From Deltaproteobacteria bacterium (GTDB lineage: Bacteria; Myxococcota_A; UBA796; GCA-2862545): 64,000 bases of DNA. The stretch is from assembly GCA_007693595.1 (NCBI GenBank), contig REDI01000034.1, positions 62,001 through 126,000 of the forward strand, in the 5' to 3' direction. The translations under genes were made by a program, and so were the position numbers. Below are positions 10,337 through 30,367 of this stretch, in pieces (the stretch's first letter is position 1; the number at the start of each line of letters is the position of its first letter). The notes under the pieces were generated by a model that made no database searches, was not told where the DNA came from, and saw only the letters and a program-made list of their open reading frames with translations.

Positions 10337-11410
10337 TCAGGACGGGTCGGGCTTGGGAGTGTCGGGACCGCTCTCGGGCAGGTCGGGCTTGGCGATGTGG
10401 TCCTCGGGGATATCTCCGGTGAGCACGTTGAGGAAGACGATGATCTTGTCGACGTCTTCGTCGGCGAGCTCCTTGCCGAGCTGGTGGGTCGCCATGAGCT
10501 TGACCGCCTCGGGGAGGCTCTCGACGCTCCCGTCGTGGAAGTAAGGCGCGGTCTTGGCGATGTTGCGCAGGCTCGGCACCTTGAAGACGTACTTGTCGGA
10601 CTCCTTCTCGGTGACCTCGTAGCGACCCCGATCATCGGTCTCGTAGGGCTTGACCAGGCCGACCTTCTGAAACATGCTCCCACCGAGGTTCTCGCCCAGG
10701 TGGCAGGTGGTGCACCCGGTCTGCACGAAGAGCTTCGCGCCTTCGACCTCGGCCTCGGTGAGCGCCGAGGCGTCGCCCTTGAGGTAGTCATCCCACTTGG
10801 AGGGGGTGACGAGGGTACGCTCGAAGGCCCCGATGGCGATGGCGAGGTTCTCGTAGGAGATCGGATCGTCATCGTCGGGGAAGGCAGCGGTGAACTTCTC
10901 TTTGTAGTCGGGGATGCTGCTCAGGGTCGCGAGGACGGTGGGCTCGTCGAGCATGGCCATCTCGACCGGGTTGAGGATCGGTCCCTTGGCCTGTTCCTCG
11001 ACGTCTTCGGCGCGCCCGTCCCAGAACTGCGCGACGTGCAGGGCTGCGTTGTAGACGGTCGGGCTGTTGCGGTCGCCGCGCTGGCCCTTGTGACCGGGCG
11101 AGGTCTTCTCGTTGTCGACGCCCCACTTGTCGAGCATGTGGCAGGAGTTGCAAGAGATGTCGTGGTTCTTCGAGAGGCGCGGCTCGTAGTAGAGCATGCG
11201 CCCGAGGTCGACCTTCGCGTCGGTGATCGGACGCTTTTCGGTCGCCATGTCGGACGGGAGGGGCTTGAACATCGAGAGGAGCAGCGGATCGGGCTCGGAG
11301 GGGGCTTCCTTGGCCTGCTCGGCCTTCTCGCCTTCATCGGGGGAGGGGGAAGGGGTGGACGTACCGTTACATGCAGCCAGGAGGAGAGCGAGGGAGATCG
11401 AACGCGTCAT
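10337..11410 (-). CDS. Di-haem cytochrome c peroxidase (CcpA/MauG family) lipoprotein
   Basis: A 357-residue lipoprotein with lipobox LLLAAC (Cys14) after a short signal, then a Pro/Glu-rich linker. Two c-type haem sites are present: CNSCH in the first half and CTTCH in the second. Around them are family motifs (DLGRMLYYEPRLSKN, RNSPTVYNAALHVAQFWDGR, VPSLRNIAKTAPYFHDGS). Bacterial CCPs reduce hydrogen peroxide with electrons from small cytochromes; MauG relatives oxidise protein side chains. The start at 11410 has GGAG upstream and gives the clean lipobox. It is convergent with the PPIase gene, with 45 bases between. Peroxidase activity is inferred from the family. Confidence 0.9.
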   Translation of the reverse strand: MTRSISLALLLAACNGTSTPSPSPDEGEKAEQAKEAPSEPDPLLLSMFKPLPSDMATEKRPITDAKVDLGRMLYYEPRLSKNHDISCNSCHMLDKWGVDNEKTSPGHKGQRGDRNSPTVYNAALHVAQFWDGRAEDVEEQAKGPILNPVEMAMLDEPTVLATLSSIPDYKEKFTAAFPDDDDPISYENLAIAIGAFERTLVTPSKWDDYLKGDASALTEAEVEGAKLFVQTGCTTCHLGENLGGSMFQKVGLVKPYETDDRGRYEVTEKESDKYVFKVPSLRNIAKTAPYFHDGSVESLPEAVKLMATHQLGKELADEDVDKIIVFLNVLTGDIPEDHIAKPDLPESGPDTPKPDPS

Positions 11411-14439: not shown

Positions 14440-15009
14440 CTAGAGCAGAGCCTCGACGGCCTCGATGAGCTCTGGATCGTCCGGCTTGGTCCGGCTGCCC
14501 CAGCGATGGACGACCTCGCCCTTCCGGTTGACCAGGAACTTCTCAAAGTTCCATTTCACGCGCCGGCCGGCTCCGACCTCGGAGTCGATGAGGAATCGGT
14601 AGAGGTCTGATCGGTCCTTGCCATTGACGTCCTGCTTCTCGAGCATGGTGAACTCGACGCCGTAGTTCTTCTTGCAGAAGTCTTGGATCTTCTCGGCGTC
14701 GCCGGGCTCCTGACCCGCGAACTGGTTGCACGGCACTCCGACCACGCGAAGGCCGCGAGCCTGGTACTTGTCGTGAAGGCGCTGAAGGCCCTCGTACTGC
14801 GGGGTAAAGCCACACTTGCTCGCCACGTTCACCACAAGCACCACGGAGCCCTCGAGCTCCTCGCCCTCGAGGGGCGCGCCGTCGAGGCGTGTCATCGACA
14901 GCTCGGTCAGGGACAGGGAACTCCCCTGCGCGGGGGCGGGATCTGCGGCGCTCGAGTCGCCGGCGCAGGCGCCTGTCGCGAGCAGGAGCAAGAAGAGTAG
15001 TCGTGGCAT
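14440..15009 (-). CDS. Glutathione peroxidase family lipoprotein
   Basis: A 189-residue glutathione-peroxidase/thiol-peroxidase protein with an N-terminal export signal ending ATGAC (Cys15), probably lipid-modified. The active site is NVASKCGFTPQYEGLQ with Cys rather than selenocysteine. It is followed by VPCNQFAGQEPG and the C-terminal VKWNFEKFLVN (Trp and Asn of the tetrad). Enzymes with this Cys usually use thioredoxin. AGGAGG lies seven bases before the ATG. An envelope peroxide-scavenging role fits the di-haem peroxidase 3 kb away. Confidence 0.9.
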   Translation of the reverse strand: MPRLLFLLLLATGACAGDSSAADPAPAQGSSLSLTELSMTRLDGAPLEGEELEGSVVLVVNVASKCGFTPQYEGLQRLHDKYQARGLRVVGVPCNQFAGQEPGDAEKIQDFCKKNYGVEFTMLEKQDVNGKDRSDLYRFLIDSEVGAGRRVKWNFEKFLVNRKGEVVHRWGSRTKPDDPELIEAVEALL

Positions 15010-15114: not shown

Positions 15115-16095
15115 TCAGCGCATAGCCAGCACGGTCGCGTCGTCACGGCCGTTGTGGTGCCGGTCCAGCAACCGCCAGGCGAGGCCCAGCGGCCAGCCGA
15201 GTAGCCCGGCGCGATCGAGGCTGGGATCCGTGCGATCCGGCAGGCCGTCGGTGAACAGGACCAGGGTCCGGCCCCGTCTTGGGAAGGTCGAGAGCTGGGG
15301 AGGTCGGCCGCGTCCTCGGCCGAGCACGCTCGGGGTGTAGGGAACGCGCTGCCCGCCGTCCGGGCCGTACAGCCCGACCCGAACATTCCCCGCGATGCTC
15401 GCAGAGACCGCGTCGGTCTGAAGGTTGACCGAGACGACCGCGACCGCGCTGCCTCGGCTCCCGCGCAGCGAGAGGTCGCACTCGCGAAGGGCCTGATCGG
15501 GTCGAAGGTCGGCGTGTTGGGTGCAGCAGCGGCAGGCGATCGTGGCGGCCTTACGGGCCTCGGGGCCGTGACCCAGACCATCGGCGAGGATGAGGGTGAG
15601 GTGCGTCTCTGTGCGAACGATCGCGGCGTCGTCTCCGCTGAGGGACTCCTCGGGGTGGGGGCGCCCGAAGAGGACGACGCTCGGACCCGCGCGGGTGTGC
15701 TCGGGGAGGATGCGAGCGCGGATCCGAACGCCCTCGAGGGTGCGGCTCTCGACGTCGAGCTCGGTCGCGAGCCTGCGTACCCCTGCCAGCCCGATCCCGA
15801 GCCCGGGTCCTTCGGCCTTTGGGACGCCCGCGAACGCCTCCACCGGATCGGCCAGGCCGTCCCCCGCGTCGACGGCGGTGATCTCGATCCCGCGGTGCTC
15901 CCCTCGGGTGATTGGGGCGAGGGTGACTTCGCCTAGGCGCGCGTGTCGGAGCTGGTTGTGGGCGAGCTCGCTGACCACGATCGCGGCGCGCTCCACCTCG
16001 TGCTCCGCCACTTGGTGGCGGTCGCCCAGGAGCCGAACCGCTCGCCGGGCCAGAGCGACGCTCGCGCCGTCGTCCATCGCGATCACCTGGCTCAT
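15115..16095 (-). CDS. Stressosome phosphatase: RsbT-like ATPase fused to RsbX/SpoIIE-type PP2C
   Basis: A 326-residue two-domain protein, last gene of the stressosome module. Residues about 1-140 form a HATPase_c/anti-sigma-like domain (VVSELAHNQLRHARLG, AVDAGDGLADP, GLGIGLAGVRRL). Residues about 145-326 form a SpoIIE/PP2C-type phosphatase (LTLILADGLGHGPEARKA, GRTLVLFTDGLPDRT, GRDDATVLAMR). RsbX-like phosphatases reset the stressosome by dephosphorylating RsbR and RsbS. The ATG at 16095 overlaps the rsbT stop as ATGA. The much longer upstream frame is a shadow. The ATPase half may act as a second RsbT-like switch; that is inference. Confidence 0.82.
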   Translation of the reverse strand: MSQVIAMDDGASVALARRAVRLLGDRHQVAEHEVERAAIVVSELAHNQLRHARLGEVTLAPITRGEHRGIEITAVDAGDGLADPVEAFAGVPKAEGPGLGIGLAGVRRLATELDVESRTLEGVRIRARILPEHTRAGPSVVLFGRPHPEESLSGDDAAIVRTETHLTLILADGLGHGPEARKAATIACRCCTQHADLRPDQALRECDLSLRGSRGSAVAVVSVNLQTDAVSASIAGNVRVGLYGPDGGQRVPYTPSVLGRGRGRPPQLSTFPRRGRTLVLFTDGLPDRTDPSLDRAGLLGWPLGLAWRLLDRHHNGRDDATVLAMR

Positions 16096-16514
16096 CGGCG
16101 GCTGAACCGGGTCCACTTCGCGACGGTGATCGTGGTCCCGACGTCGACCTGAGTCTTGAGCTCGAACTCGTCGACCAGACGCTGACTCCCGGACAGGCCG
16201 AGGCCGAGGGAGCGACGGCTGCTGTAGCCCCCGGAGAGGGCTCGCTGGACATTGGCGATTCCGGGTCCCTGGTCGGTGAAGGTCAGGCGTAGCCCATGAC
16301 CCTCTTCGCGCTGGAGCTCCTCGATGCGGACCTGACCCCCGCCGCCATGGGTCCACACGTTCCGCGACAGCTCGCTGGTGGCGGTGGTGATCGCCGCGGT
16401 CGCGAAGACATCGAAGCCGTGCCGCTCGGCCAGATCCCGCACTCGTCGTCGCACCAAGACCACATCGTGCTCGCAGACGATGGACATGTCGGTCGACCCG
16501 AGCACCCTCTCCAT
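16092..16514 (-). CDS. rsbT: RsbT-like serine/threonine protein kinase (switch kinase)
   Basis: A 140-residue GHKL ATPase matching RsbT in size and motif order: ATSELSRNVWTHGGGG (N box), LTFTDQGPGIANV (G1), and SSRRSLGLGLSGSQRLVDEF (G2), ending VDVGTTITVAKW. RsbT phosphorylates the STAS domains of RsbR and RsbS and, once released from the stressosome, activates a downstream partner. The start is ATG at 16514 (or GTG at 16517) overlapping the rsbS stop. No rsbU, sigB or anti-sigma gene is present in the window, so the output partner is unknown. Confidence 0.87.
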   Translation of the reverse strand: MERVLGSTDMSIVCEHDVVLVRRRVRDLAERHGFDVFATAAITTATSELSRNVWTHGGGGQVRIEELQREEGHGLRLTFTDQGPGIANVQRALSGGYSSRRSLGLGLSGSQRLVDEFELKTQVDVGTTITVAKWTRFSRR

Positions 16515-16888
16515 CACGTCTCCTCGGCGAAGAGACGTTCGAGAAGCTCGAGCCCGTGATCGACGTTGAGCGCGGCTTCGATCCCGTCGAGTTGGTAGCC
16601 CATTTGCACCAGGGTCGCCGCGACCTCGGGGCGCATGCCCACGATCACGGTCCGGGTGCCCATGAGGCGCGCCATCTGTGCGGTATCGGCCAGCGCCCGC
16701 GCGACGTAGGTGTCGACGATGTCGAGAGAAGAGATCTCGAGCATCAAGCCTCGGGCGCCGGTGCGCTCGATTCTGGCGAGCACATCTTGCTGGAAGCGTT
16801 CGGCAACCCGGTCTGATAGCTCGCCCTGAAGCGCTGCGATCAGGGTTCCGCGGATCTGTAGAATCGGCACGGGGCTAGGACGGTTCAT
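16514..16888 (-). CDS. rsbS: RsbS-like single-STAS stressosome scaffold protein
   Basis: A 124-residue STAS-domain protein. The phosphoacceptor region reads LEISSLDIVDTYVARALADT, with Thr60 where Bacillus RsbS has Ser59, then GTRTVIVGMRPEVAATLVQM. RsbS forms the stressosome core with RsbR and binds RsbT. ATG at 16888 overlaps the rsbR stop (ATGA), and the stop overlaps rsbT. The longer frame upstream is a shadow inside rsbR. Confidence 0.87.
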   Translation of the reverse strand: MNRPSPVPILQIRGTLIAALQGELSDRVAERFQQDVLARIERTGARGLMLEISSLDIVDTYVARALADTAQMARLMGTRTVIVGMRPEVAATLVQMGYQLDGIEAALNVDHGLELLERLFAEET

Positions 16889-17808
16889 GACACATCGCTC
16901 CGGACGATGTGACGCCCGACGATACGCAGGGCCAGCTCGATACCATCCGACAGCTTGTTGCGCGTCTCCATGGCGGAGATGTCGACGCCGAGCTCGACCA
17001 TGGTGCGCGCGACCTGCGGGCTGATCCCGGTGAGGATCGTGCGGGCTCCCAGAAGCCGCACCGCTGCCGTCGCCTTCAGCAGGTAGTCTGCGACCTGGGT
17101 ATCGACGACGGGGACGCCAGCGATGTCGAGGATGAGCACCCGCGCTTGCTGGTCGGTGATGCGGGTGAGGACCGTCTCCATGATCTGCTGGGCCCTGAGG
17201 CTGTCGATGGTGCCGACCAGGGGCAGCAGCAAGACGCCGTCGTGAACCAGGATCACCGGCGTCGACAGCTCGCGGATGGCCGCTTGGTGGCGCGAAAGGG
17301 TATCGAGCTGAGCGAGCATGTAGGCGTCGATCGCCAGGGTGGAGTCGAAGAAGACGACCTTTTGCAGAGAGCGGTAGATCTCGTGCGCCTCGACGGGCTC
17401 GTAGTTCTGCTGGAGGAGGTCGAGCAAGATGAGCAAGTAGCGGCTGTAGGAGCCCATGTACCACTTGAAGGGGAGGCCGACGCGCTCATGGGTGCTGCCG
17501 ACTCGGAGGCGATCGTGCACATAGTCGGTGTCGATCACGCCGTCGAAGAGGCCGAGGAAGTAGCTGCGCTGGAGCCGCTTGAGGCGTCGCATGCGCTCGG
17601 GATCGTCCATGTAGGCGGCGGTCTCAGGGTGTTTGAGGATGAGATCGTAGAAGCGCTCGACGACCTCGTCCATGTGCGCCTCAGCGAAGGGGCGATGGGC
17701 GGCGAGGCGCTCGAGGTCGCTCGGAGTGATCTCGAAGTAGGCCAGCCTTCGCTCGACCTCTTGAGGGTCCATCTTCAGGCGCTTGGGGCTGCGGTCGCTA
17801 TCGAGCAT
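16885..17808 (-). CDS. rsbR: RsbR-like stressosome sensor with N-terminal protoglobin domain
   Basis: A 307-residue sensor. Residues about 15-165 form a globin-coupled-sensor (protoglobin-like) domain; VGSTHERVGLPFKWYMGSYS holds the predicted haem-binding His107. A linker helix (about 165-185) leads to a C-terminal STAS domain (about 185-305). The STAS domain has VPVVDTQVADYLLKATAAV and GISPQVARTMVELGVD, so T237 and T269 match the two phosphoacceptor threonines of RsbR proteins. Such RsbR proteins bind haem and may sense oxygen or redox state. First gene of the module, it is divergent from a histidine kinase gene over 150 bases that should hold both promoters. I see no clear promoter boxes there. 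Confidence 0.88.
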   Translation of the reverse strand: MLDSDRSPKRLKMDPQEVERRLAYFEITPSDLERLAAHRPFAEAHMDEVVERFYDLILKHPETAAYMDDPERMRRLKRLQRSYFLGLFDGVIDTDYVHDRLRVGSTHERVGLPFKWYMGSYSRYLLILLDLLQQNYEPVEAHEIYRSLQKVVFFDSTLAIDAYMLAQLDTLSRHQAAIRELSTPVILVHDGVLLLPLVGTIDSLRAQQIMETVLTRITDQQARVLILDIAGVPVVDTQVADYLLKATAAVRLLGARTILTGISPQVARTMVELGVDISAMETRNKLSDGIELALRIVGRHIVRSDVS

Positions 17809-17958
17809 GATCGGGGTCCTCGGTCAGGCAGATCGGGGGGGGGCTAACCGATACGGCGCCCCCGGGCGCGGCGGCAGGGAACATCGGGTATCGGGCGCGT
17901 AGGGTTCAGGACGCCGACGCGCTATACCCGAGGGGCTCGGTCGAGCAAAGGAGATTCG

Positions 17959-19092
17959 ATGAAGCCCGCGATCGCCATCGATGTGCTCGTCGCCTTCAGC
18001 CGTGAGGCCAGCGAGGGCGACGAGCCCCCCCGGAGGGTCTTGGAGCGTCTGGCTCAGGCCCTCGCCGGGCTGGGTCAGCTCAAGGGAGCGGTCGTCGTCG
18101 AGACCTCGGACCAGGGCGAGCCGGTGCTCGTGGCCTCGGTGGGGTTCTCGCTGGAGGCGGATCCCGAGATCGAGAGCCTCGATGAAGAGCTGGAGCGATG
18201 GGTCTTGCGCGCCGCCGGCCCGGGACAGACCACGACCCTGCCTCTGGTCAGCGCGGGCGGGCTCTTTGGAGCGGTCGTTCTCTTGTGGTCAGGCAGCCAG
18301 CCGGACAGGCTGGAGCTGCGACTGGCGGAAGGCCTGGTCGATCTCGCGGCGGTGGCGGTGGACCGTGCCCACCGGACCCGCGCGCTGCGTGAGACGCTCT
18401 CCGAGTTGCGCGCGAGCAAGGAGTCGCTCGCTCGCCGTGAGAAGCTCGAGGCGCTGGGCGAGATGGCGGCGGTGGTCGCCCACGAAGTGAAGAATCCGCT
18501 CGCGAGCATCTCCGGCGCACTGCAGGTCCTGGGCCAGCGCATGCCCTCGGACAGCACCGAGGGCAAGGTCGTCGACATGGCGCTGCAGCGCTTGCGTGAC
18601 CTCGCGTCCATGGTCGATGAGCTGTTGACCTTCGCCCGCCCTCGGTCGCCGACCTTGACTCGGGTCGCGGTCCGTTCCTTTCTCGACGGGGTGTGTGGGC
18701 TCCTTCAAGCGAACCCCCAGTGGAGCGAGCTCGAGCTTCAGGTCTCGATCGAGCCCGCCGATGCCCAGCTCCTCGTCGACGCGGGACAGCTTCAGGGCGT
18801 GCTGCTCAACCTGCTGCTCAACGGAGCGCAGGCCATGGAGGGTCGGGGGACGCTCGCCCTCTCGGTCTGTGTGACCTCGGAGGATGCCCGGATCGAGGTC
18901 CTAGACCAGGGCCCAGGAGTGCCCGCGCACGTTCGAGATCGGATCTTCGACCCCTTCGTGACCACCAAGATCCGAGGCAGCGGTCTGGGGCTCGCGGTCG
19001 CCAGGCAAGTGGTCGAGGCGCACCAGGGGCACATCGAGCTCGAGCATCCCGAAGCGGGAGGCGCGCGCTTCGTGATCACGCTCCCGGCATGA
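17959..19092 (+). CDS. GAF-domain sensor histidine kinase
   Basis: A 377-residue soluble histidine kinase. Residues about 1-140 look like a GAF domain (RRVLERLAQALAGL, FGAVVLLWSGSQPDRLEL). A coiled segment follows, then HisKA with H175 (AAVVAHEVKNPLASISGA). The HATPase domain has LLNLLLNGAQAMEG, VLDQGPGVPAHVRDRIFDPF and GSGLGLAVARQVVEAHQGHI. No transmembrane segment is visible and no cognate response regulator is adjacent. AGGAG lies seven bases before ATG 17959. It is divergent from the stressosome module and could be its output or an independent system. Its last 17 bases overlap the convergent hydrolase gene. Confidence 0.9.
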   Translation: MKPAIAIDVLVAFSREASEGDEPPRRVLERLAQALAGLGQLKGAVVVETSDQGEPVLVASVGFSLEADPEIESLDEELERWVLRAAGPGQTTTLPLVSAGGLFGAVVLLWSGSQPDRLELRLAEGLVDLAAVAVDRAHRTRALRETLSELRASKESLARREKLEALGEMAAVVAHEVKNPLASISGALQVLGQRMPSDSTEGKVVDMALQRLRDLASMVDELLTFARPRSPTLTRVAVRSFLDGVCGLLQANPQWSELELQVSIEPADAQLLVDAGQLQGVLLNLLLNGAQAMEGRGTLALSVCVTSEDARIEVLDQGPGVPAHVRDRIFDPFVTTKIRGSGLGLAVARQVVEAHQGHIELEHPEAGGARFVITLPA

Positions 19093-22879: not shown

Positions 22880-25800
22880 ATGAACATGCGCGCTCCCTTC
22901 TCGCTATCGCTCGGGTCCGCCCTCATGCTCGCCGCCCTGGCCGGGTGCAACGCTCCTCCGGTCGCTCCGGTGGTCCAGATCAACCCCGAAGGTCCGACCA
23001 CGCTCGACCAGCTCGAGCTCGAGTTCCTTACGCGCTCCGAAGATCCCGACGGTGGCGACGTCGTCAGCTACGAGATCCGCTGGCTCCGCGACGGCGTGGA
23101 GCTCGACGAGCTCGACGACGAGCTCATGGTGCGCGCGCGCCTTACCGCCAAGGATCAAGAGTGGCGCGTCGTGGTCACCCCCTTCGATTCGCGCGGCCGC
23201 GAAGGCCAGGCGGGCGAAGCCTCGACGGTCATTCAGAACACGCCCCCCTCAGGGGCCGAAGTCACCATCTCGCCCCCCATCCCCGTGCCCAACGAAGCGC
23301 TGACCGCGGTCCCCATCGCGCAGGATGTCGACGGCGATTCGATCACCTGGACCTACCGCTGGTTCAAGGACGACGAGCTCACCGAGCACATCGGGGTCAT
23401 GCTCCCCGAAGGCCTGACCTCCAAGGGTGATGTCTGGAGCGTCGAGGCCACCCCGAATGATGGCGACGACGATGGCGAACCCGCCACCGCCTCGGTCAGC
23501 ATCGACAACTCTGCGCCCGAGGTCGTCTCGATCACCATCGAGCCCGTCGAGGCGTTCACCACCACCGATCTCACGGCGGTCCCCGAAGGCTTCGATGAAG
23601 ACGGCGACACGATCACCTGGAGCTATCGGTGGTTCCGTAACGACACCGAGATCGGGGGGGCGGTCACCGATGAGCTCGCCTCCACGAACTTCGTCAAGGG
23701 CGACGACATCGTCGTCGAGGTCACGCCCAACGATGGCTTCGTCGACGGGGCGCCCGAGCGGAGCCTCCCGCTGCGCATCCTGAACACGCCGCCGACCTTC
23801 ACGGCGGCGGCGATCGAGCCGGATGTGGCCTTCACCAACACCGTGCTCGAGTGCGTCGGCGTCGGCTTCGAAGACATCGACGATGATCCCCCGGGCTACC
23901 GCTACCGATGGTTTGTCAACGGGATCGAAGCCTCTTCCGAGCGCTTCTTGCCCACCCCCCTCTTCCAGAAAGATGATGAGGTCTTTTGCGAAGCGACCGC
24001 CTTCGATGGACAGGACACGGGTAATACCGAACAGTCGGACTCGATCTTTATCCGCAACTCCCCTCCCTCCATCGAAGAGGTGGTGATCAACGTCGAAGAG
24101 CCCACGTCTCTCGACACCTTGGGCGTCTCGATCATCGGCCTGGTCGATCCCGATGGCGACGACGTCGTCTTGGAGTACCGCTGGTACACCCTCGATGACT
24201 CCGACGAGCAGGTCGTCCTGGGGACCGATCCCGAGCTCACCTCCGACGAGTTCGAGAAGAACACCGTCATCTGGGTCGAGGTCACGCCCGACGACCTCTT
24301 CAACCGTGGCGAGCCCGTGGTGAGTGAGCCGGTCACCATCCGCAACTCCGAGCCCGAGATCACCGAGTTCACCATCGAGCCTGAGCTCCCCTTCGCCTTC
24401 GACGACATCGTCGCCACCGTCGAGACCTTCGACGCCGACGGCGACGAGGTGATCGTCACCTATACGTGGACGGTCAACGACGACGTCATCGGATCGGCCG
24501 AAGGTCGCACCCTTGATAGCATGCACTTCGTCAAGGGCGATGTGGTGCGCCTCTCGGTCCTACCCTCCGACGACGAGAGCGATGGCGAGGAGCTCTTCTC
24601 GCCCTTCCTCATCGTCCAGAACAGCCTGCCCGAGATCAGCGACGTCGCCCTGAACGAGAGTGAGCTCTTCGCCGAGACCTCGGTCACCTGCATTCCCCTC
24701 GGTTGGTCCGACGCCGACGGCGACTCACCCGGCTACCGCTACCGTTGGCTCGCCGACGGCGAGGTGGTGGCGACCACCGCCACCCTCCAGGGCAGCTTCG
24801 CCCCGCGCGACATCGACATCCGCTGCGAGGTCACCCCTTACGATGGCGAAGACTTTGGCGATGCCTTGCTGTCCGACCCGATCCAGCGCGCCAACACGGC
24901 GCCCGTGATCGGCGGCGTGTCGCTCTCGAGCCTGAGCCCCCGCGAGGGCGAGACCCTCTCCCTAACCTTTGAAGGGGTCTTCGATGCGGACGGCGATGAG
25001 GTCGAGCTGAACATCGCCTGGTTCGTCGACGGGAGCGTGGTCTCTGGACAGACCTCCGACCTGCTCAGCAGCGAGTTCTTTCAGAAGGGCGACGAGGTCT
25101 ACGCCATCGTCACGCCGGTCGACTCCTTCGGGCTCGAAGGCGACTCGGCACAGTCGGTCTCCGGCTTCGTCGCGAACACGCCCCCGGTTATGGAGTCCGT
25201 CGTCCTCGACAACCTGAGCCCCTCCGCCACCGAGACGATCACGGCCACGGCGGTCGCGTCGGACATCGACCAGCGCGATGTGGATGCGGGCCTTCGGTTC
25301 ACCTATACCTGGCTCGTCGACGGCGATGTCGCGCGGGTCGATTCGGACACGACCTCCACCACGTCCTCCTTCGTCGGCATGACCGACTTCAGGAAGAATC
25401 AGAATATTCGCGTGCGAGTCCAGGTGAGCGACGGCGATGCCCAGAGCGGAACGCTCGTCTCAAGCTCGGCGAACTCGGTGAACACCCCGCCTCGGATCGA
25501 TGCGGCCTCGATCAGCCCCTCTGCCGACGTCCTCGCCGATACCACGCTCCGCTGCAACACCAGCGGGTGGAGCGATCCGGACCAGGTGGTCGCCGAGGGC
25601 ATCGATCTGGAGCGCTATCGCTACCGCTGGCGCATCAATGGGTCGAGCGCAGGCACGAGCCAGACCCTCACCTCCGGTATTCGGCGCGACGACGTGGTCA
25701 CCTGCACCGCCACCCCCTTCGACGACGAGGTCGATGGCGAGCCGCGGACGAGCACCGAGGTCACCGTTGGCAACAGCGTACCCACCCTGGGGAGCGTGAG

Positions 25801-28800
25801 CCTGTCGAGCACCTCGCCACGCACGACCGAGGTGTTGGTGGCGACTCCCGTCGACGCCCACGACCCCGATGGCGATCCGATCACCTTCTCTTACGAGTGG
25901 AACGTCAACGGCTCGCCCGAGGGCGGTGGGCCCAGCCTGGATCTCTCGGCCTATTCACCGGGCGCGCAGGTCTTCGTCACCGTCACCCCCTCCGACGACG
26001 CAGGCGGTACCGGCGAGCCCGTCGAGAGCGCGCTGGTCACCATTCAGAACTCCCCCCCGCGCATCCTGTCCATCGACCTCTCCCCCGACAGCCCACTCAC
26101 CCTCGACCCGATCGTGGCCACGGTTGAAGCCGACGATCCCGACGGAGGCACCCCGAGCCTCTCGTATGCGTGGAGCGTGAACGGGAGCCCCGCGGGGGGC
26201 AACAGCCCGACCCTGCCGGCCAACCAGACCCGGAAGGGGGACACGGTCACGGTCACCGTCACCGCGACCGACGACGACGAAGGCACCGACAGCCAGACCT
26301 CGGCCACCCTCGAGGTCGGCAACACCCTCCCGGTCATCAGCGGGGTCACCCTCAACCCCGACAGCTTCGACACCACCGAAAGTAACCTCACCTGCGAGGT
26401 CGCCTCGTGGGACGACCCCGACGTCGACGACATCCGAGAGTACCGCTTCGTCTGGACGGTCGGCGACGAACCCTTGCCCGAGGTGATCACCACGGATCCT
26501 TCCGACAGCCTCGACCCCGGCTTCTTCGTTCGTGGCAACGAGGTGTTCTGTTCGGTCACGCCCTTCGACGGCGATGACGTCGGGGCCACGGTCAGCTCCG
26601 AACCCTCGATCGTCGAGAACTACGTGCCTGAGCTGGAATCGGTCAGTATCGATCCGCCCACGGCCAACTCCACCACCACCCTCTCGGCGGTGATCGACGG
26701 CTTGTTCGACGCCGACGAGGCCGACGGGGACCCTCTCACGGTGAACTACGTCTGGCGGGATCTCACCTCGGACGTCGTGCTGAGCACCGCGTCCACGGTC
26801 TCGAGCGGCTTGGTCGCGGGCCATACCGTACAGGTCGAGGTCTTCGCGAGCGACGGCATCGCGCAGAGCCCCACCCAGACCGCCTCGGTGACGATCCAGA
26901 ACAGCCCGCCGGTCTTCAGCGATGTCTTTATTGGGCCGGTCTCGCCTCAGGCGCTCGACACCCTGGTCTCCAACGTGACCGCGAGCGACCCCGACGGCGA
27001 GTCCTTCTCGCTGTCCTACGAGTGGCAGGTCAACGGGGGCTCCGGCTGGCAGACCGTCACGGGTCAGACCGGGTCCACCCTGACCAACCCCGCGGCTCCG
27101 GCCGAGCCCTACTTCCGCCGCAGTCAAGATATCCGCGTTCGGGTCACCGGCACCTCCTCTCCCAGCGGCGCGACCAGTGAGCAGTTCTCCAACGTCGTGC
27201 AGGCGATCAACACGCCTCCAACTCTGGGCAGTGCGCGCGTGCGCCCCTCCGGGGGGGCGGGTGTCAACGGCACCTTCACCTGCGAGGCCGTGTCACCCTT
27301 CGACGCCGACGATGATCCCGTTATCATGGAATATCGTTGGTTCGTCGGATCGTCCGAAGTACCGGGCGCTACGAGCAGCTCGCTCTCCAATCCGGCGGGG
27401 AACTTCCAGCGCGACGACCTGATCCGATGCGAGATCACGCCCTTCGACAACATTGAGCGTGGCACCCCCCGCCTGAGCAGCGCGGTGCCGGTGGGCAATA
27501 CCGCGCCCAGCCTCACGACGGCGGTTTTGACTCGCGCCGACGGCGAAGACCTCGAAGACCTCACCACGCTCGACGACCTGCGCTGCACGGCCTCAGGCTG
27601 GTCCGATCCCGACTCAGGCGACACCCGAGAGTACCGCTTCCACTGGGAGATCACCCGTGGGACGGGTACGCTCCTCCTGACGGAAGACATCGTGTCTACC
27701 GACTCGGAGGTCGAGGCCATTCTCTCGAGCGAAGACATCCGCCGCGACGACGAGATCGCCTGCTTTGTCGTGCCCTTCGATGGCTTCGACGAAGGGGCAC
27801 CCGCGGTGGCCGTGGACGAGCCGGTGGTCCAGAACACGCCTCCCCAAATCGATCGTGTCGAGATCTCGAACTTGGCCCCGCGGACGACCGAGGCCATTAC
27901 CTGTACCGCAATGGGTTGGGACGACCCCGACGATGAGGACGATCGCACCTGGAACTTCGTCTGGACGATCACGCCGCCCTCCGGCGAGGGCTCGCCCTTC
28001 ACGATCATGGACTCCTACGAGGATCCGACGGGCACCGAGTCGTCAGCCAGCGTCGAGCTGGCGTCTTCGAACTTCTTCAAGGGGGACCTGATCTCGTGCG
28101 AGGTCACGCCCGAGGACCGCGACGAGACGGGGGACGAGGTCGACTCCGACGACGACGCGACCGTTGCCAACACCCCCCCGACCACCGGCGTCGCGAACGT
28201 TACCGGCACCTTCAGCGCCAACCAGGACCTCACCTGCACCCTCACGGGTGACTGGGGCGACATCGACCAGACGGAAGGGCGCGACGAGACCTTCTTCCGG
28301 TATCAGTGGTCGGTCGACGACGACTGGTTGTCAGGAACCGACAGCGCGATCTTCAACGACACGTCTCCGAACGACCGCGTGCGCTGTAGGGCATGGATCC
28401 GCGACCAAGACGAGGCCGAGGTCGGGCCCGTGGCCTCGCCTGAGATCCAGATCGGCAACGCGCCACCTGTGATCAGCAGCGTGACGTTTTCCGCCGAGAT
28501 CCGCACCCTCGACACCCCCGAGGTCACCGTCATGGCCACCGACCCCGATGGTCCAAACAATCAGATGGAGTACGCCTACGTCTGGCGGGTCGGCTCGGAC
28601 GTCGTCCGAGACGTGAGCGAGCTCGTGAACACCACCTCCGATATGCTGAGCGACAACACGCTGTTCGTGCGCGACAACGAGCTCTGCGTCACCGTCTCGG
28701 TCACCGACCGAGACGGCGCTACCACCGAGGCGGACCCCGTCTGCCGCATTATCCAGAACACGCCGCCTTCTGGAGGCGCTGCTGCGGTCGCTTCGGTCGA

Positions 28801-30367
28801 CGACAACGGCATCGACCGCGACACGGTGTGCACGGCCAGCGGCTTTACGGATCCCGATGTCACCGATGGCAACCAGACCCTCGAGTACCGATACGAGTGG
28901 TCGGGCACCGCGACGCGCGACTCGGGCTGGACCACGAGCCTCACCGACACCTTGCCGGCAAACTCGGCGAGCGCGGGCGATGTCACCTGCACGATCACGG
29001 CGCGGGACTTCGAGGGCGCGACCGAGACGGCTTCGGCACTGGGCACCTTGGGGCTGCTCGACCTCACCCCCACCTTGGTCGAGGCCTCACCCGGGACCTT
29101 CGCGGGGCAGACGTTGTTCACCAATACCGATGCAGCGGTCACGGTCGAGGCTGGCAACGCGGCGGGCGGCTCGTTTACCTACACCTACAACTGGAGCGTG
29201 GTCGACGGTTTCTCAGCCAGCCCGAGCGGGAGCGATCCGAGCTCCACCTTCGACAGCGGGAACTTCGTTCGAGAGAATCAGGTCTGTCTCACGGCGACGG
29301 TCAACAACACCTTCCGCACCTCGAGCACGCTGGATCTTGGCTGTGTGACGGTGCAGAACTCTCCGCCCGACGCGAGCGCTGCGACGGTCACCGTGACCTC
29401 CGCCGACGCACCCCACAACGGCATCGATCATCCTGTCACTTGCTCGATCTCGGGTGCGACCGATCCCGACATCCCTGCGGGGGACTCGCTGGAGTACCGA
29501 TTCACTTGGTCGAGCGATCCAGCCGGCCTGAACGTCCAGACCGCCTGGGGCTCGAGCCCCAGCGCCGAACTCTCTGCCGACTCGGTGAGTGCCGATGCCC
29601 AGGTCACCTGTACGGTCGCGGTCCGCGACGACACCGACACGCTGGCACCGACTCAACCCTCGGCATCCGTGGATCTCGTGGATCTCACCCCCACCTTGGT
29701 CGAGGCCTCACCCGGAGCCTTCGTCGCCCAGGAGCTGTTCACCAACGGCGTCGCTTCGGTCTCCGTGGCCGCCACCAACAGTCAGGGTGAGAACTTTACC
29801 TACAGCTACACGTGGACGGTGAACCCTGGCGAAACCGAGGTCACTTCGAGCAACGAGACCTCCGACGCGACCGACACCTCGACCCTCGCTGGCGAAGACA
29901 ACTTCGCCCGCGACGACGAGGTCTGCGTGACGGTCACCGTCGACAACACCTTGCGCACCTCCGACGCGGTCGGCCCGCTGTGCGTGACCATCAACAACAG
30001 CGCGCCGACCTCGCCCGGCATCGCGCTTCTTCCGACGGATCCTGAGCCAGAGGCCCAGATTACGTGCAGTGTGACCGACGAGAGCACCGATGCGGATGAA
30101 GACCTGTTCGACTACATCTTCGCTTGGTACTTGGGCGACGATCCAGCCACGAGGGTTCTCGTCTTCACCGAGATTTTAGAAGAGGAAGACGATCCGCTTG
30201 AGAGTGTCTACCCTCCCGCAGGCGATGTCTGTGGCGATGAAGGCGACGAGGTCTGCGATGTGCTCGCGTCGGGAGACACTTGGACCTGCGTGGTCACGGC
30301 TGATGATGGCGACGATGCCAGTGAGGCCGTCGAGGACTCGGTCGTCGTGACCGAGCCCGATCCGTAG
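22880..30367 (+). CDS. Giant surface lipoprotein with about 25 PKD/Ig-like repeats
   Basis: A 2,495-residue protein, the largest gene here. It starts with a lipoprotein signal (SALMLAALAGC, Cys23), so it is probably anchored to the outer membrane. The rest is about 25 repeats of roughly 90-105 residues. Each opens near NTPP or NSPP, has an acidic turn like DPDGD, a strand like YRYRWFVNG, an FxKGDxV segment and an EVTPFDG-like strand. The fold suggested is PKD/cadherin/Ig-like; many Asp residues could bind calcium. Repeats 4, 7, 10, 13, 16-19, 21, 23 and 25 carry two cysteines at Ig-like strand B and F positions. ATG 22880 is chosen because it gives the lipobox; the upstream extension is not signal-like. 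No enzyme domain or C-terminal anchor is visible. Adhesion or matrix structure is the inferred role. Confidence 0.85.
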   Translation: MNMRAPFSLSLGSALMLAALAGCNAPPVAPVVQINPEGPTTLDQLELEFLTRSEDPDGGDVVSYEIRWLRDGVELDELDDELMVRARLTAKDQEWRVVVTPFDSRGREGQAGEASTVIQNTPPSGAEVTISPPIPVPNEALTAVPIAQDVDGDSITWTYRWFKDDELTEHIGVMLPEGLTSKGDVWSVEATPNDGDDDGEPATASVSIDNSAPEVVSITIEPVEAFTTTDLTAVPEGFDEDGDTITWSYRWFRNDTEIGGAVTDELASTNFVKGDDIVVEVTPNDGFVDGAPERSLPLRILNTPPTFTAAAIEPDVAFTNTVLECVGVGFEDIDDDPPGYRYRWFVNGIEASSERFLPTPLFQKDDEVFCEATAFDGQDTGNTEQSDSIFIRNSPPSIEEVVINVEEPTSLDTLGVSIIGLVDPDGDDVVLEYRWYTLDDSDEQVVLGTDPELTSDEFEKNTVIWVEVTPDDLFNRGEPVVSEPVTIRNSEPEITEFTIEPELPFAFDDIVATVETFDADGDEVIVTYTWTVNDDVIGSAEGRTLDSMHFVKGDVVRLSVLPSDDESDGEELFSPFLIVQNSLPEISDVALNESELFAETSVTCIPLGWSDADGDSPGYRYRWLADGEVVATTATLQGSFAPRDIDIRCEVTPYDGEDFGDALLSDPIQRANTAPVIGGVSLSSLSPREGETLSLTFEGVFDADGDEVELNIAWFVDGSVVSGQTSDLLSSEFFQKGDEVYAIVTPVDSFGLEGDSAQSVSGFVANTPPVMESVVLDNLSPSATETITATAVASDIDQRDVDAGLRFTYTWLVDGDVARVDSDTTSTTSSFVGMTDFRKNQNIRVRVQVSDGDAQSGTLVSSSANSVNTPPRIDAASISPSADVLADTTLRCNTSGWSDPDQVVAEGIDLERYRYRWRINGSSAGTSQTLTSGIRRDDVVTCTATPFDDEVDGEPRTSTEVTVGNSVPTLGSVSLSSTSPRTTEVLVATPVDAHDPDGDPITFSYEWNVNGSPEGGGPSLDLSAYSPGAQVFVTVTPSDDAGGTGEPVESALVTIQNSPPRILSIDLSPDSPLTLDPIVATVEADDPDGGTPSLSYAWSVNGSPAGGNSPTLPANQTRKGDTVTVTVTATDDDEGTDSQTSATLEVGNTLPVISGVTLNPDSFDTTESNLTCEVASWDDPDVDDIREYRFVWTVGDEPLPEVITTDPSDSLDPGFFVRGNEVFCSVTPFDGDDVGATVSSEPSIVENYVPELESVSIDPPTANSTTTLSAVIDGLFDADEADGDPLTVNYVWRDLTSDVVLSTASTVSSGLVAGHTVQVEVFASDGIAQSPTQTASVTIQNSPPVFSDVFIGPVSPQALDTLVSNVTASDPDGESFSLSYEWQVNGGSGWQTVTGQTGSTLTNPAAPAEPYFRRSQDIRVRVTGTSSPSGATSEQFSNVVQAINTPPTLGSARVRPSGGAGVNGTFTCEAVSPFDADDDPVIMEYRWFVGSSEVPGATSSSLSNPAGNFQRDDLIRCEITPFDNIERGTPRLSSAVPVGNTAPSLTTAVLTRADGEDLEDLTTLDDLRCTASGWSDPDSGDTREYRFHWEITRGTGTLLLTEDIVSTDSEVEAILSSEDIRRDDEIACFVVPFDGFDEGAPAVAVDEPVVQNTPPQIDRVEISNLAPRTTEAITCTAMGWDDPDDEDDRTWNFVWTITPPSGEGSPFTIMDSYEDPTGTESSASVELASSNFFKGDLISCEVTPEDRDETGDEVDSDDDATVANTPPTTGVANVTGTFSANQDLTCTLTGDWGDIDQTEGRDETFFRYQWSVDDDWLSGTDSAIFNDTSPNDRVRCRAWIRDQDEAEVGPVASPEIQIGNAPPVISSVTFSAEIRTLDTPEVTVMATDPDGPNNQMEYAYVWRVGSDVVRDVSELVNTTSDMLSDNTLFVRDNELCVTVSVTDRDGATTEADPVCRIIQNTPPSGGAAAVASVDDNGIDRDTVCTASGFTDPDVTDGNQTLEYRYEWSGTATRDSGWTTSLTDTLPANSASAGDVTCTITARDFEGATETASALGTLGLLDLTPTLVEASPGTFAGQTLFTNTDAAVTVEAGNAAGGSFTYTYNWSVVDGFSASPSGSDPSSTFDSGNFVRENQVCLTATVNNTFRTSSTLDLGCVTVQNSPPDASAATVTVTSADAPHNGIDHPVTCSISGATDPDIPAGDSLEYRFTWSSDPAGLNVQTAWGSSPSAELSADSVSADAQVTCTVAVRDDTDTLAPTQPSASVDLVDLTPTLVEASPGAFVAQELFTNGVASVSVAATNSQGENFTYSYTWTVNPGETEVTSSNETSDATDTSTLAGEDNFARDDEVCVTVTVDNTLRTSDAVGPLCVTINNSAPTSPGIALLPTDPEPEAQITCSVTDESTDADEDLFDYIFAWYLGDDPATRVLVFTEILEEEDDPLESVYPPAGDVCGDEGDEVCDVLASGDTWTCVVTADDGDDASEAVEDSVVVTEPDP
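29063..29715 (+). repeat. 32-base perfect direct repeat marking a duplicated two-domain module
   Basis: The 32 bases at 29063-29094 recur without change at 29684-29715, exactly 621 bases (207 codons) apart and in frame. Both encode LTPTLVEASPG at the start of a repeat. The surrounding two-repeat modules (beginning about 28760 and 29360) also match at protein level, including IDLxxVTCxxSG-like and VNNTFRTSS/VDNTLRTSD segments. This shows a fairly recent tandem duplication of a two-domain unit inside the giant lipoprotein gene. Confidence 0.9.

Follow-up and report, generated by a model that had tools for sequence, protein, structure and literature searches.

Stressosomes built on a globin-bearing RsbR and encoded by rsbRSTX operons have been described in Vibrio vulnificus and V. 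brasiliensis (PDB 7o0i; PMC9237108, PMC4976288), and other stressosome systems are those of Moorella thermoacetica (PDB 3zt9, 3ztb) and Bacillus subtilis (RsbRST-UVW-SigB-X). The role of stressosomes in bacteria that lack sigma-B is an open question, and the immediate target of RsbT in V. vulnificus is still unknown. We analyzed a stretch of 64,000 nucleotides (hereafter the window) from contig REDI01000034.1 of a deltaproteobacterium placed in the Myxococcota_A, the minus strand of which carries, at 15115-17808, four open reading frames (ORFs), rsbR, rsbS, rsbT and an rsbX-like gene (X), with successive overlaps of 4, 1 and 4 bases. The module belongs to the globin-rsbRSTX class already known, as a variant in which X is fused to a second domain and to which a histidine kinase is evolutionarily tied, and we lean towards this adjoining kinase, on the basis of gene context, as the output of RsbT. 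What is new here is the evidence on output; the class itself and the occurrence of a fused X after R-S-T were already known.

All four ORFs were present where an earlier note on this DNA had placed them, and a gene caller based on codon usage agreed with their start sites; a GTG at 16517 is an alternative start for rsbT that would make the overlap with rsbS 4 bases instead of 1. The four-gene pattern is far above chance expectation. RsbR combines an N-terminal protoglobin domain with a C-terminal STAS domain, and RsbS, RsbT and X follow directly downstream in that order, the arrangement that defines the class. The stressosome identity, the globin sensor and the fused ATPase-phosphatase proposed in the note held in hidden Markov model searches, in sequence comparison with the PDB, and in predicted structures and their fold matches, and we regard the assignment to the globin-RSTX stressosomes as practically certain. 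The likeness to the Vibrio operons takes in the RSTX order, the haem-site residues, the similarity of the RsbR globin-STAS protein over nearly its full length, the absence of a sigma branch, and the presence of adjoining two-component genes. Unlike its Vibrio counterparts, X here bears an N-terminal RsbT-like ATPase, and the adjoining kinase is a GAF-HisKA protein encoded on the opposite strand, whereas in Vibrio a downstream D1-D2 pair, assigned to cyclic di-GMP control, occupies the flank.

The description of RsbR as a protoglobin-STAS protein with His107 as candidate proximal haem ligand was confirmed by Pfam (Protoglobin, 3.3e-40; STAS, 4e-16), by ungapped alignment with HemAT and by conservation. 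The closest chain in a phmmer search of the PDB was 7o0i, the RsbR of the V. vulnificus stressosome (E = 6.7e-54, residues 17-299), the STAS half also matching RsbR chains of the Listeria type, and in a PDB sequence search the isolated globin matched 2w31, 7o0i, HemAT (1or4) and the globin-coupled histidine kinase 5ohe. His107 and Tyr54 aligned with HemAT His123 and Tyr70, which we take to be the proximal and distal haem positions, respectively, and both were invariant across 13 relatives, as was Thr269, with Thr237 nearly so; Thr237 and Thr269 presumably occupy the positions of B. subtilis RsbRA T171 and T205. In the AlphaFold2 (AF2) model of RsbR (predicted local distance difference test, pLDDT, 84) the globin and STAS domains were confident and a globin fold was predicted, contrary to the structural outcome that the note had named as refuting, the mutual placement of the two domains being of low confidence (predicted template modelling score, pTM, 0.56). 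Foldseek gave template modelling (TM) scores, relative to the target, of 0.85-0.90 for the globin with globin sensors (0.90 to 2w31, 0.86 to HemAT 1or4) and 0.92 for the STAS domain with RsbS 6jhk.

The two closest characterised homologues are haem proteins whose activity responds to O2 (PMC4976288, PMC9237108), and by analogy with them we infer haem binding, O2 sensing and the phosphorylation cycle for this module; RsbR very probably binds haem, and O2 is its likely signal. The earlier note had allowed for O2, CO or redox state, of which O2 is strengthened by these homologues and CO and redox state are less likely. It is nevertheless conceivable that the globin binds haem and that the signal it reads in the cell is not O2, being instead NO, CO or the redox state of the haem, given that with V. 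brasiliensis RsbR the kinase rate was intermediate under NO or CO and low with Fe(III) (PMC4976288). The authors of that study argue against redox sensing, however, the distal Tyr is conserved, and the cbb3, USP and protoglobin-kinase neighbourhoods of relatives, described below, favour O2, so that we consider such a signal improbable.

Pfam matched RsbS to STAS (8e-14), RsbT to HATPase_c_2 (2e-12), and X to HATPase_c_2 (3e-8) and SpoIIE/PP2C (5e-9), in agreement with the domains originally proposed. The module shares its RsbR, RsbS, RsbT and RsbX parts with B. subtilis; unlike there, the Ser acceptor of RsbS is replaced by Thr (Thr60), at a position occupied by Thr or Ser in relatives. RsbT residues E48, N52, D81, G83, G85, G104 and G106 were invariant across 23 relatives. 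The AF2 model of X (pLDDT 93, pTM 0.91) had as its top fold match the Moorella stressosome phosphatase 3zt9 (TM 0.92 to target) and as its second B. subtilis RsbX (3w40), and sequence searches with the PP2C half were likewise led by 3zt9 with RsbX second; judged by sequence and modelled fold, the phosphatase half is of the RsbX class, not the RsbU class. The Moorella stressosome also has no sigma-B output and is adapted to another one, as here, with the differences that the solved Moorella X is a phosphatase domain alone and that Moorella signals through a diguanylate cyclase governed by RsbU_N and RsbT (cited in PMC12143880).

In the description of Heinz et al. (PMC9237108) the X of globin clusters is a single-domain protein, and the N-terminal HATPase_c_2 domain found here is a departure from that description which leaves the core definition intact. 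Neither half of X looks dead, because the active-site residues of both were invariant in 13 relatives: Asn47 (N-box), Asp76/Gly78/Gly80 (G1) and Gly102 (G2) in the ATPase half, and Asp155, Asp172-Gly173, Asp283-Gly284 and Asp318-Asp319 in the phosphatase half. X could thus be proposed to serve as the output as well, with an ATPase half that senses free RsbT by hetero-pairing and a PP2C half that acts on a further target, so that reset and output are combined, the more so as no other phosphatase of the RsbU/RsbX type was recognised in the genome from which the window comes. We give this proposal little credence, given that the PP2C half is RsbX-class in fold and sequence and that this genome has no non-stressosomal STAS substrate.

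The HATPase-PP2C fusion was also considered as a novelty in itself and rejected. Proteins of this kind are already in RefSeq as "ATP-binding SpoIIE family protein phosphatase", a name not found in the literature searched, and R-S-T-X operons in which the HATPase-PP2C protein follows RsbT, with a gene for an ATP-binding protein next, are present in alpha- and betaproteobacteria (Alloyangia, Paraburkholderia plasmids); these RefSeq proteins differ in showing ~30% identity, and the N-terminus of the Paraburkholderia RsbR is RsbRD-like. A search for relatives of X encoded on viral contigs found none. As a separate observation, L122 (G040 C80, 501-2787) is a second globin stressosome copy of the form R-S-X, in which X follows S without an intervening rsbT and a further STAS protein comes next; the N-box Glu is missing from its X, which may therefore not simply replace RsbT. 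Lone globin-RsbR paralogues, 52-60% identical to the RsbR of the window and with S, T and X not adjoining, were seen at L124, L125, L139, L140, L143 (Nannocystis) and L144 (Pyxidicoccus fallax).

The earlier statement that no sigma factor, RsbU or anti-sigma gene lies near the module was borne out within the window, the region in which sigma genes were sought. Searches of the whole genome, a draft that is 98.4% complete, returned RsbR and RsbS as the only STAS proteins, with one STAS_2 match elsewhere under the cut-off and no RsbV, and no RsbU_N domain; of six other SpoIIE/PP2C matches, five were PPM/Stp-like by their N-termini and the sixth was under the family cut-off. Unlike B. subtilis, then, this organism has neither the RsbU_N phosphatase nor the RsbV-type STAS protein of SigB-type partner switching, and its operon is without a sigma gene; in view of the STAS, STAS_2, RsbU_N and SpoIIE searches a canonical sigma-cascade output was rejected. 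RsbT is consequently left without a textbook target, since RsbR and RsbS are the only STAS proteins and RsbU_N is absent.

The survey of conserved neighbours across Myxococcota that the earlier note had recommended made the adjoining histidine kinase the leading candidate for an output partner; the note's own observation of a divergent kinase gene next door was upheld by Pfam (HisKA and HATPase, with a weak GAF match). The survey covered 27 named loci with globin RsbR and RsbS, and in 26 of them the contig also includes X. Two loci run out at a contig edge before the flank, leaving 25 in which the flank was judged, L119 from its partial upstream gene. An orthologue of the kinase immediately adjoins rsbR in 17 of these 25, and beyond them in the window itself, in L089 and in G020, a member of the same genus. 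In G020 the kinase gene is on one contig and RSTX on another, and they are taken to be adjacent because the kinase contig ends inside the start of rsbR, with its first codons (MSNSHEYMSRLH). The two genes are divergent in most loci and co-directional in G030 and G040. A different histidine kinase adjoins the module in two loci (upstream in L137, downstream in L141). Although these genomes are rich in histidine kinases, chance would not be expected to place one as the immediate neighbour in the majority of loci. Within the order, full-length orthologues of the kinase (E<1e-50) were found in 6/6 globin-RSTX genomes versus 1/54 others. Given the conserved adjacency and co-occurrence, and an RsbT without a textbook target, the adjoining kinase is the best output candidate.

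Independent evidence came from other Myxococcota, in which RSTX, with X fused or unfused and RsbR of globin or other type, is followed by a kinase with ~120 extra N-terminal residues. A profile of these N-termini matched the RsbT profile over 105 columns (hhalign, 97.2% probability, E 3e-11), and the domain is degenerate, with the ATP-binding residues missing. Such a pseudo-RsbT domain on a kinase is what would be expected if RsbT pairing links stressosome to kinase, and Baral et al. (PMC12143880) argue that RsbT-type inputs are exchangeable among phosphatases, cyclases and kinases by way of coiled-coil linkers. In the kinase of the window a helical-looking stretch was noted by eye at about residues 138-165, ahead of HisKA.

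Several results weigh against the kinase as the output. The kinase of the window has neither an RsbU_N nor an RsbT-like domain; cbb3 oxidase genes take the place of the kinase in three of the 25 loci (L119, L128, L145), and L120, L126 and L129 have no adjacent kinase at all; and a positive interaction of V. vulnificus RsbT with the adjacent two-component protein D1 was not obtained (PMC9237108). The last of these, together with the RSTX loci that have no adjoining kinase and the presence of an orthologue without RSTX in G032, would fit a kinase that is an independent sensor beside an O2-sensing stressosome, with the target of RsbT elsewhere (another kinase, a cyclase or a phosphatase without RsbU_N). 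We hold this to be a less probable account, as orthologues within the order are nearly confined to RSTX genomes, the adjacency survives inversions, and the RSTX-linked kinases of other lineages bear an RsbT-like domain.

The model that we favour, with moderate confidence, is a minimal globin-coupled stressosome that signals through the adjoining kinase and possibly on to an NtrC regulator. The STAS particle would consist of RsbR and RsbS, the protoglobin domains of RsbR forming turrets that bind haem and sense O2; on falling O2, RsbT would phosphorylate RsbR and RsbS and leave the particle, and X would reset it by dephosphorylating both. Through its extra RsbT-like ATPase domain X probably docks on RsbT or the STAS core, or forms a pair with one of them. 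With the RsbU-RsbV-RsbW-sigma branch absent, freed RsbT would act instead on the kinase, which may govern a two-component response, the likeliest regulator being an NtrC-type (NmpR-like) protein beside the cbb3 operon. We infer the steps from RsbT to kinase and from kinase to NtrC regulator from genome context, and that the NmpR-like protein is the final target is a tentative proposal.

The reason for considering such a regulator is the resemblance of several neighbourhoods to the low-oxygen system NmpRSTU of Myxococcus xanthus, in which, as in AfGcHK, O2 is sensed by a protoglobin, and which comprises cytoplasmic histidine kinases and an NtrC-type regulator, NmpR, with the consensus GCGCA-N5-TGCGC and a low-O2 gene set that includes CBS and USP proteins (PMC11841059). 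In L119 and L128 ccoN(O) of a cbb3 oxidase is divergent from rsbR, in L119 by similarity of a partial gene only; L145 also has a cbb3 neighbour, and the divergent order is less certain there because the 5' ends of ccoN and rsbR are both missing. The ccoN and ccoO genes are fused in L128 and L145. In the ccoN/rsbR gap of L128 there are a perfect GCGCA-N5-TGCGC, another site that matches its core, and a sigma54-like site oriented towards ccoN, and the rsbR/cco gap of L119 also has an NmpR-type site. Protoglobin histidine kinases lie near RSTX in L089, L132 and L145, with an NtrC regulator confirmed beside the kinase in L089 and further regulator-like genes in the other two; in L050 (G011) an NtrC regulator lies 2.5 kb past X. 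USP genes were found within 10 kb of RSTX in 4/13 genomes versus 0.47 expected (simulated P ~0.0009, with gene densities taken as uniform and genomes as independent). Unlike NmpRSTU, in which the kinase NmpU carries the globin, here the stressosome carries it and would act via a separate kinase; RsbR is the only protoglobin of this genome, which thus has no protoglobin histidine kinase. In G032 C28 (L107) the kinase orthologue that is without RSTX lies ~8 kb from cbb3 genes with a USP gene alongside, and the locus also holds a protoglobin kinase and an NtrC regulator.

In the genome of the window a cbb3 operon, an NtrC regulator and a USP gene stand together (G000:C5), with no protoglobin kinase on that stretch. 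This regulator is 65% identical to the G032 regulator that is paired with a protoglobin kinase, and its counterpart adjoins such a kinase in G032, G040 and G010. Sigma54-like sites precede both ccoN and the regulator gene (score 19.7 of 21.2; ~2% of random 300-bp windows reach 19), and no GCGCA-N5-TGCGC pairs were found at these two promoters. The RSTX-adjoining kinase is the best match in the genome to the protoglobin-kinase core (136 versus 102 bits for the next), and its phospho-acceptor helix (HEVKNPLASISGALQVL) is similar to that of the protoglobin kinases (HELRNPLAGISGAIQVI). One might therefore suppose that in this genus the stressosome took over the O2-sensing role of a protoglobin kinase, RsbT driving the GAF kinase onto a kinase-less NtrC/sigma54 regulator of cbb3 genes; if true, the takeover would constitute a pathway from stressosome through two-component system to sigma54.

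We consider this takeover doubtful, however. The tree did not join the RSTX kinase and the protoglobin kinases in a supported clade, the RSTX of this genome has no cbb3 or USP genes nearby, and neither a sigma54 nor an NmpR-type site stands out above background between its rsbR and the kinase gene; in addition, G030, G040, G010 and G011 carry RSTX and protoglobin kinases alike, so that replacement of the one by the other is not general. That the stressosome feeds the G000:C5 regulator is plausible but unproven, since the kinase is the best core match and yet the tree does not unite the groups. These comparisons suggest how a protoglobin sensory domain can be exchanged between kinases and a signalling particle of megadalton size, possibly within the same low-oxygen response, and the RSTX-kinase pairing, the RsbT-like kinase fusions and the cbb3/NmpR neighbourhoods of Myxococcota supply named proteins for testing.

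Table 1. Features of the module and its flank (window positions) and kinases with an RsbT-like N-terminus in other Myxococcota (locus positions).
Feature	Position	Strand	Description
rsbR	16885-17808	-	307 residues; protoglobin 16-165, helix, STAS 184-277; sensor/co-antagonist
rsbS	16514-16888	-	124 residues; single STAS; scaffold/antagonist; shares 4 bases with rsbR
rsbT	16092-16514 (ATG start)	-	switch kinase; N, G1 and G2 boxes kept; shares 1 base with rsbS
rsbX-like fusion (X)	15115-16095	-	326 residues; RsbT-like HATPase 11-126, RsbX-class PP2C 144-326; overlaps rsbT by 4 bases
Histidine kinase gene	17959-19092	+	soluble, GAF (weak)-HisKA-HATPase (Pfam); proposed output partner
rsbR/kinase intergenic region	17809-17958	none	between the divergent genes
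RsbR His107 codon	17488-17490	-	predicted proximal haem ligand; ungapped alignment onto HemAT His123
RsbR Tyr54 codon	17647-17649	-	predicted distal (B10-type) tyrosine; ungapped alignment onto HemAT Tyr70
RsbR STAS region, Thr237 and Thr269	17002-17100	-	candidate RsbT phospho-acceptor sites
RsbS Thr60 codon	16709-16711	-	Thr or Ser in relatives
Inverted repeat	17884-17897 / 17918-17931		imperfect, 14 bp, 20-nt spacer
Kinase, degenerate RsbT-like N-terminus	L102:8407-10473		downstream of RSTX
Kinase, degenerate RsbT-like N-terminus	L103:10231-12285		downstream of RSTX
Kinase, degenerate RsbT-like N-terminus	L091:10241-11839		downstream of RSTX
Kinase, degenerate RsbT-like N-terminus	L094:7787-9358		downstream of RSTX
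Kinase, degenerate RsbT-like N-terminus	L099:7609-9063		downstream of RSTX
Kinase, degenerate RsbT-like N-terminus	L052:11441-14062		downstream of RSTX

The inverted repeat in the rsbR/kinase gap (17884-17931) is a possible operator; inspection by eye of the G020 gap, which is shorter, did not reveal it. A palindrome search of the cbb3 promoters of the order gave weak half-site candidates of the TGTG(C) type only, which were left unused. Near the module the window also carries a gene resembling di-haem cytochrome c peroxidases by eye (10337-11410) and a glutathione peroxidase gene (14440-15009, Pfam), and at 22880-30367 it encodes a lipoprotein-like protein of 2495 residues built from many repeated domains.

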